A stretch of 39,353 nt of DNA, taken from Desulfobacteraceae bacterium. Its GTDB lineage: Bacteria; Desulfobacterota; Desulfobacteria; Desulfobacterales; UBA2174. The translations under genes were made by a program, and so were the position numbers. The stretch is taken from positions 1-39,353 of the forward strand of contig DQXI01000009.1 of NCBI GenBank assembly GCA_011042305.1, in the 5' to 3' direction. A model generated the notes under the pieces. That model was not told where the DNA came from. It saw only the letters and a list, made by a program, of their open reading frames with translations, and did not search any database. This document shows positions 34,785 through 37,849 of the stretch, piece after piece (position 1 is the stretch's first letter; each line of letters begins with the position of its first letter).

Positions 34785-36365
34785 ATGGAAGTCACATTTC
34801 ACGGCGCGGTCAGGGAAGTGACCGGCTCGCTCCACCTCCTTGTCCACGGAAGGGATCGCATCCTGCTCGACTGCGGCCTGTTTCAAGGTCGGCGCAAGGA
34901 GACCAATGCCAAGAACCGCCACCTGCCGCTGCCGGCCGATAAGATCACCAACGTCATTCTTTCCCACGCCCACATCGACCATTCCGGCCGGATTCCCCTG
35001 CTGACGCGCAACGGCTTCGGCGGCCGCGTGATCTGCACCCGGCCGACCCTGGATGCTTGCACTTACCTGCTGCCCGATTGCGGGCATATCCAGGCCTCGG
35101 ACGCTGAGTATCTCAACTACAAGGCCCTGCGCGGATGGTTGACCCAAAAACAGCGCAGCCGAAACGGCAAGGCGCACCCGTCATACACCCGTGATCAGGT
35201 GCACCGGTTGCTCAAGAAGCCAGGCCAGCGCCTTGACGGCGAACGTATTGCGGCGCTGATGGCCGAAAACGACCTGGAACCCATCGCGCCCCTGTACACT
35301 CAGCAGGACGCCGAGGCCGCCCTGGAGTGGTTCGATGGCTATCCCTACGGCTTCCCGCTCACCGTGGGCCGGGATATGACCTGTACCTTCTACGATGCCG
35401 GCCACATTCTGGGATCGGCGGTGAGTATCATCCAGGCCCGGCACCAGGGGCGTCCCGTCACTGTGGGCTACACCGGCGATATCGGCCGATACAACACCAG
35501 CATTCTCAGGGACCCGGCCCGGGAGTTCGATCCGGCCCATAGGCGCATCGACCTGCTGCTAATGGAAAGCACCTATGGCGATCGGCAGCACGAACCGGTT
35601 GAAGGGCTGGGCGACCGGCTGGCGGAAGTGATCAACGATACCCACGCCCGGGGTGGTACCATCTTGATTCCCAGTTTCGCCTTCGGCCGCGCCCAGGAGC
35701 TGCTCTACACCCTGCACGATCTATACGACCAGAAAAAAGTGCCCCGGTTGCCCATTTACGTCGACAGTCCGCTGGCGATCCGAATGACCAAGGTCTACGG
35801 CGAGCATCCCGAGGTCTACGATCACGACACCCATCGCACCTTTTTGCGCCATGGCAAAAACCCGTTCGACTTCAAGCAGGTGCACTTCGTCTCGGAGGTT
35901 GCCGACTCCATGGCCCTCATGCGCGAGGATACACCGCACATCGTCATCGCTTCCTCGGGGATGTGCGAGGCCGGGCGCATCCTGCACCACCTGCGCCACA
36001 AGATTCACAACGCCAAGAACACCATCCTCATCGTGGGGTTCATGGCCCGCAACACGCTGGGACGGCGGATTCTCGAGGAAGGAGAGGCCTATGCGGCCGA
36101 AGGCCGGAAGGGCCCGGCGCCGATCATGCGCTTTCTGAACAAGAGTTATCCGCTGCGTGCCCGCGTGGCGCGCCTCGGCGGATTCAGCGCCCACGCCGAC
36201 CGCGATGAGCTGGTGCGCTTCTTGCGCGAATCCAACCTTGACATCCGCCGCATCGCGCTGGTCCACGGCGAAGAGGATCAGAGTCTGGCCCTGGCAGGCC
36301 GTTTGCGAAGCATGGGGTTCCGGGCCGAGGTGCCTGAACTGGGGCAGACCATCACGCTGCCTTGA
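34785..36365 (+). CDS. Beta-CASP metallo-beta-lactamase-fold hydrolase (RNA-processing type)
   Basis: 526-residue YSH1/CPSF-like protein. The MBL zinc motif HAHIDH is at about 61-66, further ligands at DAGHILGSA and GYTGDIG, the beta-CASP motifs follow (ESTYGDRQH, IPSFAFGRAQELLY, YVDSPLA, ASSGMCEAGRILHHL), and the C-terminal GGFSAHAD provides the last His. Such proteins are endo- or exoribonucleases, but bacterial members of this branch are not well characterised. GAGGAGAG precedes ATG 34785. It is followed by the AT-rich intergenic region that holds the mobile elements. Confidence 0.9.
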   Translation: MEVTFHGAVREVTGSLHLLVHGRDRILLDCGLFQGRRKETNAKNRHLPLPADKITNVILSHAHIDHSGRIPLLTRNGFGGRVICTRPTLDACTYLLPDCGHIQASDAEYLNYKALRGWLTQKQRSRNGKAHPSYTRDQVHRLLKKPGQRLDGERIAALMAENDLEPIAPLYTQQDAEAALEWFDGYPYGFPLTVGRDMTCTFYDAGHILGSAVSIIQARHQGRPVTVGYTGDIGRYNTSILRDPAREFDPAHRRIDLLLMESTYGDRQHEPVEGLGDRLAEVINDTHARGGTILIPSFAFGRAQELLYTLHDLYDQKKVPRLPIYVDSPLAIRMTKVYGEHPEVYDHDTHRTFLRHGKNPFDFKQVHFVSEVADSMALMREDTPHIVIASSGMCEAGRILHHLRHKIHNAKNTILIVGFMARNTLGRRILEEGEAYAAEGRKGPAPIMRFLNKSYPLRARVARLGGFSAHADRDELVRFLRESNLDIRRIALVHGEEDQSLALAGRLRSMGFRAEVPELGQTITLP

Positions 36366-36866
36366 ACAGGCGCCCGTCACCTTGTCACCGCCGCACGCCG
36401 CTTCCTGGATGCCGTATTCTTTGAATGCGGCGGTAAAGATGGTTGGCCCCGCCCCGGCGGACGAAGCATTGAAACTGTACTGTGTCGCGAGACACAACTG
36501 TCCGTGATTCGTACGGGATATCGCCCCCGCCCCGGTTCGGCCGTCATTTATCGCTAGTGTCCATCCAGAAATGAGAATTTTTGTTCAAGATCAAGGCATG
36601 CGAAAAAATAACTGCAGGCATATGGTTGATATTCCGAGGATTATTTTTTGAGCAGAACGCAGAGATTGGACAAAAAGGCCATTTATGGACGGACACTCGC
36701 TATAAATTTCAATTGCTTTCTTGGGAACAAAAGCGAAGATGATGCCGTTGGCATGCAACTTGAAGGAGTTTGTGAAGAAGATGTTTTGAAACCGCGTCTT
36801 TCCATAAAACCGACTGTGTTGCCGCTCACCCGGGGCACGAGAACCCCTAGGGCCGGGAGTTATTTT
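36366..36866. other. AT-rich intergenic stretch holding a MITE-like element
   Basis: About 500 bases without a supportable gene, more AT-rich than the rest of the window, consistent with inserted DNA. A small stem with a GCGA tetraloop lies at 36481-36496 (TGTGTC/GACACA). The 140-bp element is at 36557-36696. The segment after it (36703-36866) has no recognised feature except the GGGAG site used by the next gene. Confidence 0.55.
36551..36702. mobile_element. MITE-like element, 140 bp, with terminal inverted repeats and 6-bp target duplication
   Basis: The element runs 36557-36696. Its ends are inverted repeats of about 31 bases: left begins GTGTCCATCCAGAAATG and right ends CATTTATGGACGGACAC; the arms also share TTTTTGT.CAA further in, with a few mismatches and one indel. 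It is flanked on both sides by a perfect direct repeat TCGCTA (36551-36556 and 36697-36702), as expected from target duplication. There is no room for a transposase, so it must have been moved by one encoded elsewhere. A 5-6 bp duplication is known for several IS families; I cannot assign one. Confidence 0.82.
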
Positions 36867-37100
36867 TTGAAACCGTGTGACCTCCACCTGCAAGAGAGCC
36901 TCGAGCTGGCCGAACGCATGATCGCGCTTTCCTTCCAGGGCGACCAGGACCGGGAGGACAACGGATGCGGCATTATCTACGGGATGATGCGCGACGCCGG
37001 CTTCCGTCTGAAGCACTTGGTGACCCGGGAAATCGAGAGTCACCGCCTGAAGTCGAGCCGCTCATCGGGTGCGGCCGACGGGGGGCGGCCGGCAACCTAA
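36867..37100 (+). CDS. Small hypothetical protein (77 residues)
   Basis: Starts at TTG 36867 with GGGAG about seven bases upstream; an earlier in-frame start at 36648 lies inside the MITE and is rejected. Content: MKPCDLHLQESLELAERMI, then a charged DREDNGCGIIYGMMRDAGFRL and a basic, low-complexity tail (RSSGAADGGRPAT). The helical core (about 5-60) looks like a short conserved helical family that I recall from Desulfobacterota, with no assigned function. The last 15 or so residues may be non-conserved. It precedes rubrerythrin by 173 bases, with an inverted-repeat element between. Confidence 0.55.
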   Translation: MKPCDLHLQESLELAERMIALSFQGDQDREDNGCGIIYGMMRDAGFRLKHLVTREIESHRLKSSRSSGAADGGRPAT

Positions 37101-37121
37101 CTTTTCTGAATAACCACAATT

Positions 37122-37235
37122 TTGACAAGCTCGTAAAAAGTCCGAAAAACGCCATTTTCCCGATTTCGGACTGGATGATTTCAATGAGTTACAGTAGTGA
37201 AAATTTCAAAATCCGACTTTTTACGAATGAGTCAA
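37122..37235. repeat. Second inverted-repeat element, just upstream of rubrerythrin
   Basis: Arms 37122-37145 (TTGACAAGCTCGTAAAAAGT...) and 37212-37235 are inverted copies over 24 bases with five mismatches, including a 12-base exact TCGTAAAAAGTC core. Total length 114. A nested hairpin (GTCCGAAA 37140-37147 with TTTCGGAC 37164-37171) would compete with the outer pairing. No clear target duplication beyond AATT-rich flanks. It ends 38 bases before the rubrerythrin ATG, so it is likely transcribed in its leader. Confidence 0.7.
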
Positions 37236-37273
37236 TTTTAATCCAACCCAACCATCTCAACGAGGATGATCAC

Positions 37274-37849
37274 ATGCCAAACATCAAGGGAACCCGCACC
37301 GAAAAGAACCTGCTGGCCGCTTTCGCCGGTGAATCCCAGGCCCGCAACCGTTACACCTACTTTGCCGGTGTCGCCCGCAAGGAAGGCTACGTGCAAATCG
37401 CCGACATCTTCGAGGAGACCGCCAACCAGGAAAAGGAGCACGCCAAGCGGTTTTTCAAATTCCTGGAGGGGGGGATGGTGGAAATCACCGCCTCCTACCC
37501 GGCCGGTGCCATCGGCACCACCCTCGAAAATTTGAAGGCGGCTGCCGCCGGCGAGCACGAAGAGCACGCCGACTTGTACCCGGCTTTTGCCAAGGTGGCC
37601 CGCGAGGAGGGCTTCGAGGCCGTCGCCATGGTGTTCGATGCGATCTGCGTGGCCGAGCGGCAGCACGAGAAGCGTTACAACGACCTGGCGGCCAACATTG
37701 CCGCCGGCCGCGTCTTCAAGCGGGATACACCCGTGGTGTGGCGCTGCCGCAACTGCGGGTACCTGCACCAGGGTGTCAGCGCGCCGGAAATGTGCCCGGC
37801 CTGTGCCCATCCCCAGGCCTACTTTGAACTGCTCGGTGAAAACTGGTAG
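37274..37849 (+). CDS. rbr: Rubrerythrin
   Basis: NADH/rubredoxin-linked peroxidase of anaerobes that reduces H2O2 with a diiron site. 191 residues, equal to the D. vulgaris protein length. Diiron ligands are in place: Glu20, Glu53, His56, Glu94, Glu97, Glu128 and His131. The C-terminal rubredoxin-like domain binds Fe through Cys158, Cys161, Cys174 and Cys177 (CRNCGY ... CPAC). ATG 37274 follows GAGGA nine bases upstream; the open frame further upstream is a shadow. First gene of an oxygen-defence row. Regulation by the repeat element in its leader is only possible. Confidence 0.97.
   Translation: MPNIKGTRTEKNLLAAFAGESQARNRYTYFAGVARKEGYVQIADIFEETANQEKEHAKRFFKFLEGGMVEITASYPAGAIGTTLENLKAAAAGEHEEHADLYPAFAKVAREEGFEAVAMVFDAICVAERQHEKRYNDLAANIAAGRVFKRDTPVVWRCRNCGYLHQGVSAPEMCPACAHPQAYFELLGENW

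Follow-up and report, generated by a model that had tools for sequence, protein, structure and literature searches.

ERIC/IRU elements of enterobacteria and Correia elements of Neisseria are imperfect palindromes of about 100-150 bp, which occur in many copies in several related genera and are mostly intergenic; to our knowledge, each has one kind of end. REP/BIME sequences and REPINs are moved by RAYT transposases, and REPs, which are 20-40 bp long, insert without exact duplications of 4-6 bp. TIMEs are miniature elements derived from Tn3, with Tn3-type ends and 5-bp duplications throughout. Prokaryotic type II MITEs include Chunjie of Geobacter uraniireducens and QMITE2 of Coxiella (PMC10969869).

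The element described here is like the type II MITEs in being shorter than 500 bp, multicopy, intergenic and AT-rich, in having short terminal inverted repeats (TIRs) and flanking direct repeats, in lacking genes and in forming a stem-loop. It resembles ERIC/IRU and Correia elements in size, imperfect palindrome and copy number but differs from them in having several kinds of ends. Like REP, BIME and REPIN sequences, it is small, palindromic, abundant and conserved in structure; unlike them, it is flanked by exact duplications of 4-6 bp, and no GTAG-type tag, a REP/RAYT feature, was seen in its core. With TIMEs it shares inverted repeats, the lack of autonomy and apparent movement in trans, but several end types are found on one core. 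In ordinary MITEs the ends carry the kinship to an insertion sequence (IS) and to each other, whereas in these elements it is the middle that has been conserved, with variable ends and variable duplication lengths. No description of this core, or of end exchange around a fixed core, was found in the literature consulted, most of which can be read without subscription.

The window, the whole stretch of 39,353 nucleotides that was analysed, is contig 4 of a genome of 2.83 Mb in 266 contigs. TCGCTA, a perfect 6-bp direct repeat, is located at 36551-36556 and again at 36697-36702, as the initial annotation had claimed. Between these duplications, the element (36557-36696, GTGTCC...GGACAC) is exactly 140 bp long and forms an imperfect inverted repeat. 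The TIR proper, read from the sequence, measures about 18 bp: GTGTCCATCCAGAAATGA at 36557-36574 on the plus strand and GTGTCCGTCCATAAATGG at 36679-36696 on the minus strand, identical at 15/18 positions and both of the type recovered by genome end scans. The inverted ends proposed earlier were therefore confirmed at a shorter length than the suggested 31 bp or so, an estimate that arose because complementarity runs on, with bubbles, through the whole element; an inverted-repeat search, with the duplications counted in, gave an arm of 28 nt at 86%. The element has the size of a MITE (below 500 bp) and contains no transposase gene and no coding capacity of its own. The RNA fold of a single strand reaches -49.3 kcal/mol (z -7.1) and the DNA fold -25.5 (z -5.9), and in both cases 0/200 shuffles equalled the value. 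The window element is a non-autonomous MITE, called type A here, and this copy taken alone is an ordinary-looking MITE of type II.

In the window's own genome, a BLAST search with the 152-bp stretch gave 25 matches at E<=0.001, some of which belong to the same copy. Read with their flanks, they correspond to about 20 copies or fragments at unrelated sites, several of which are 97-99% identical. Many are truncated where a contig stops, a pattern expected of a repeat at which assembly fails. Type A ends with up to 3 mismatches were found at about 41 sites, versus 4 for a reversed control. Full copies are flanked by the exact 6-bp duplications TCGCTA, TGGCTA, TGCCTA, TACCTG and TCGGTA, three more show one mismatch, and a TCTCTA duplication is readable across two contig ends; the consensus for the type A family is TNNNTA. 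Duplications are also carried by derivatives of 36-73 bp that consist almost entirely of two facing ends. Of the two outcomes foreseen in the initial annotation, a single copy or many near-identical copies with different flanking 6-mers, the second was thus found, and the multiple copies with exact duplications establish mobility as far as sequence can.

Some type A loci deserve separate mention. At L091:1501-1536 (36 bp) and L025:1505-1543 (39 bp), nearly nothing remains but two facing ends, with TATTTA repeated exactly at L091 and a direct repeat with one mismatch at L025; both seem to have arisen by deletion and to be, or to have been, mobile. In a genome of the same order (G038, 3.6 Mb), sites of type A ends with no more than 2 mismatches number 328, equivalent to more than 150 TIR pairs. 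Most of these sites stem from the recent expansion of a single variant (GTGTCCGTCCAGAAACGA), and only two PF01609 matches were found in that genome. At L160:5114-7693, engB and an aminotransferase gene lie between two type A elements, with TAGTTA at each outer edge. This arrangement resembles a composite element; TAGTTA is a common target, and its repetition may be due to chance.

The window element is flanked by a beta-CASP RNase gene (34785-36365) on one side and, on the other, by a small ORF (36867-37100, KPCDLHLQESLELAERMIALSFQGDQDREDNGCGIIYG...), which has no Pfam match, is kept in two congeners and heads an oxygen-defence gene row of rubrerythrin, desulfoferrodoxin and a rubredoxin-like protein on its 3' side. 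A sigma54-like box (TTGGCATGCAACTTGAA, 36748-36764), located downstream of the element and upstream of the small ORF, is also kept in these congeners (G001 and G002). In both, the orthologous position is without the element, and the intergenic DNA there is too diverged for one clean TCGCTA to be read. No sigma-70-like promoter and no terminator were found at 36300-37300; with the sigma54-like box downstream, the earlier proposal that the element may supply sequence to transcripts stays unproven. Just upstream of rubrerythrin, a second imperfect inverted repeat of about 114 bp is located at 37122-37235 (arms TTGACAAGCTCGTAAAAAGTCCGA, 24 nt, 79%). Ends similar to those of this repeat (GAACTCGTAAAAAGTCCGA) were seen at loci L161, L374 and L381 of Desulfobacteraceae Eth-SRB2, and the L374 element with GAACTCGTAAAAAGTCCGA-type ends holds a variant of the same hairpin core.

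Comparison with relatives places the conserved part of the element in its middle. In the relatives' loci the outer parts differ and the inner 100 bp or so, a conserved hairpin, is shared; in the same order, 28/58 genomes of relatives gave matches, many of them solely over query positions 29-128. In the window, the hairpin core occupies 36577-36680 on the plus strand, and covariance model R1 matches 36578-36677 with 101.3 bits. Its outer helix pairs 36578-36588 with 36666-36676 (TTGGACAAAAA), as indicated by the inverted repeat, fold and covariation, and is followed by an outer internal loop with the strands GATCAAGGC (36589-36597) and AACGCAGAGA (36656-36665). The middle helix pairs AAAAAATAA (36603-36611) with TTATTTTTT (36641-36649), the letters of which vary among copies with complementarity kept. 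The alignment places the inner internal loop together with the apical stem at 36612-36622 (CTGCAGGCATA, consensus CCGCAGGMATA) and 36630-36640 (TATTCCGAGGA). All of these strands are given on the plus strand.

An alignment of 33 core sequences yields a single long hairpin of 33 pairs, in 22 of which compensatory changes have altered both sides. Paired cells amount to 94.3%; shuffles reach 80.3%, sliding the partners by one column leaves no more than 50%, and the covariation score is 0.415 against 0.164 for shuffles. The two internal loops stay imperfect, with letters near-invariant across the 33 cores (GATCAAGGC/AACGCAGAGA and CCGCAGGMATA/TATTYCGAGGA). Read from the consensus, they would be alike with their strands exchanged.

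A stem-loop of this quality could be a functional structured RNA, or an RNA-like single-strand hairpin, that hitch-hikes in MITEs and is selected as a transcript. Covarying stems and conserved purine-rich internal loops would fit such a role. The strand that was modelled has 339 G-U pairs against 39 A-C mismatches, or about 87 against 38 once five wobble-dominated columns are subtracted by hand, and this excess is a mild hint at single-strand function. However, the constraint on a DNA hairpin or cruciform would yield covariation as well, the window copy has no sigma-70-like promoter, and in Rfam 15 neither the window stretch nor 12 relatives gave a relevant match that reached the gathering score of a family. 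Of the cores, 147/158 lie outside long ORFs; relative to the core, neighbouring genes are on the same strand in 46 cases and on the opposite strand in 38. The absence of strand preference means that nothing supports a host-level RNA role, and selection on propagation of the element therefore seems likelier than a host function; an RNA origin of the conservation is considered rather doubtful. The stems might also be kept by mutation bias, that is, by quasipalindrome correction during replication, with loops too mismatched to be corrected and no selection needed. Template switching perfects imperfect palindromes and would also transfer ends between arms. The loops, however, keep the same letters across phyla, so mutation bias alone is not a sufficient explanation, and it is unlikely to account for the core.

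The core is widespread. The covariance model detected it in 33/148 genomes sampled across Desulfobacterota, with hundreds of copies over the phylum and more than 100 in each of several genomes, where at most 150 candidates per genome were scored. Desulfogranum marinum DSM 2058, an isolate, gave 39 core hits. An exact-pattern scan of GTDB contigs yielded at least 115 stretches, almost all from Desulfobacterota by title among the matches listed. In a second phylum, that of a MAG titled Nitrospiraceae, weak matches (40-53 bits) occurred in 5/68 genomes; by eye, these retain either both loops, the middle stem being shortened, or, in type E elements, the inner loop alone, and they bear other ends again. 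Most of the genomes are MAGs, in which contamination is possible for single cases. Viral contigs and plasmids gave no core match at the sensitivity of exact patterns and blastn.

Information on how the core has moved is contained in its ends. A total of 169 distinct cores were sorted by their ends, and exact direct repeats of 2-10 bp were counted at the boundaries. Among 62 elements of type A (GTGTCCRTCCRKAAAYG, GTGTCC..), an exact 6-bp duplication was found in 32 and one with at most one mismatch in 46, with no exact duplication at 3-5 or 7-10 bp. Type A2 (GTGCCCGAACGAAAAC) showed a 6-bp duplication in 3/7, type B (GAGACCTTTGAAAAA, also written GAGACCTTTG..) a 5-bp duplication in 19/37 and type B2 (GAGCCAGTTTCAAAA) a 4-bp duplication in 9/15. 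Duplications of 4 bp go with the ends GAGCCAGTTTC.. and TGAGTCTGTTGATT, the latter defining type C, in which they were present in 4/4. The 11 elements of type E (GGGCTCGCGCAA.., GGGACGGGGCC.., also GGGCTCGCG..) are about 182 bp long and flanked by TWA, a 3-bp duplication read by eye rather than counted by script; in every other type most copies are 141-146 bp long. Across the types, exact matches were hardly ever seen at longer lengths and rarely or never at other informative lengths. Copies with the ends AGGAGGCTGTCCGAGAATG, GACAGGCTGTTAC and others were too few for duplication counts. The core is thus carried by elements whose ends are of no fewer than five unrelated kinds, with duplications of 3, 4, 5 or 6 bp. 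Clustered cores, some in short tandem arrays, with yet other ends, were observed at L158:1-430, L164:600-1000, L426:401-870 and L207, and some of the ends in L207 and L426 are, by eye, reminiscent of attC sites.

The duplication length differs by end type; therefore, different transposases have probably moved the core. In a competing account, an internal deletion in one IS gave rise to an ordinary single MITE family, whose ends have merely diverged and whose core is a remnant of the IS. The anatomy of the element is that of a MITE, the copies in the window's genome are close to each other, and the A2 ends (GTGCCCGAACGAAAAC, 6 bp) may have arisen from A ends by divergence. Against this account, each end type has a fixed duplication length, which differs among types (6, 5 and 4 bp), and no alignable similarity exists among A, B, C and E ends, while the cores that they flank reach 96% identity. 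The fetched loci yielded no IS with the core inside, and a pair of elements from a single genome, described below, contradicts this account. A single diverged family is thus very improbable.

The coexistence of end types was surveyed in 80 further loci from nine genomes. In one genome (G207), 13 type B elements with 5-bp duplications and 7 type B2 elements with 4-bp duplications occur side by side. Desulfobacteraceae Eth-SRB2 (G211) contains 11 type A and 3 type A2 elements of the 6-bp kind, together with 7 type C elements with 4-bp duplications (7/7 exact). Over the inner part that was compared, two of its elements, L372 (type A, 6-bp type) and L374 (type C, 4-bp type), have 96% identity, and the similarity stops abruptly at the outermost 14-15 bp of each side; slight left/right differences just inside the switch are preserved in both. 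Cores with different end types have a mean identity of 0.858 within a genome versus 0.772 between genomes, and those with the same end type are closer still (0.947 and 0.893, respectively). These identities imply that ends and core are linked and that the link has been repeatedly broken. Structured MITEs with repeated end exchange, hence moved by unrelated transposases, are strongly supported. The whole explanation, a type II MITE whose ends have been exchanged repeatedly and whose core superfamily has been moved by different transposases, is given a probability of roughly 0.85. The superfamily is accordingly defined by its middle, an imperfect hairpin of about 100 bp with two conserved internal loops, and not by its ends.

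For type A elements, insertion would proceed by a transposase acting in trans on the GTGTCC ends, with a 6-bp staggered cut and a preference for TNNNTA; elements with other ends would be transposed by unrelated transposases. That several such enzymes act on the core is suggested by the ends and the duplication lengths. End exchange may take place by fold-back copying: a nascent 3' end in the stem would jump to the opposite arm, after which a newly acquired end would be copied outward, with the inner left/right differences left intact. Such copying would explain why the new ends are inverted copies and why the inner asymmetry is kept. The ends may instead have been swapped by separate recombination at each end. 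The core itself may be retained because the hairpin aids propagation, for example by bringing both ends together. A more far-reaching possibility, put forward tentatively, is that the core, rather than the ends, is the unit that replicates, persisting across phyla by repeatedly gaining the terminal repeats of unrelated transposons. It would then be a structured module with two copies of one asymmetric internal loop facing opposite ways; the folded core might join any pair of ends, or a host protein might recognise it.

Many described MITEs have no known partner IS, and the present search gave a similar picture. In 1.15 Mb of fetched loci, no transposase gene was found between facing ends 250-4000 bp apart; such pairs proved to belong to two distinct elements with host genes in between. 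End scans of four genomes (G205, G207, G209, G210) gave no autonomous IS with the same ends. The reach of this search was set by end matches within 1-4 mismatches in mostly draft genomes, and within it the full IS sharing the ends, as anticipated by the initial annotation, was not found. PF01609 and PF05598 transposases, as expected for an IS4/IS5-type MITE, were searched for in four genomes, and none was present in that of the window. Several candidates were rejected. An abundant IS of G050 has ends (CAGTAGTGTCCGG) that differ from those of the MITE; it also contains the letters GTGTCCGG, yet CAGTA is part of its own ends and there is no matching 6-bp duplication. Pieces at contig ends in G038 proved to be the MITE itself, and the L091 transposase of G050, beside the 36-bp double end, is a neighbour that is not bounded by type A ends.

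The classification of MITEs relies on their ends, which also link them to the IS with the same ends; here, one folded core is associated with several apparently unrelated transposition systems. This core spans a whole phylum, often with more than 100 copies per genome, and repeat annotation by ends alone would divide one superfamily into many. How non-autonomous elements swap their transposase becomes testable in this system, which also raises the question of what the core does to be kept.
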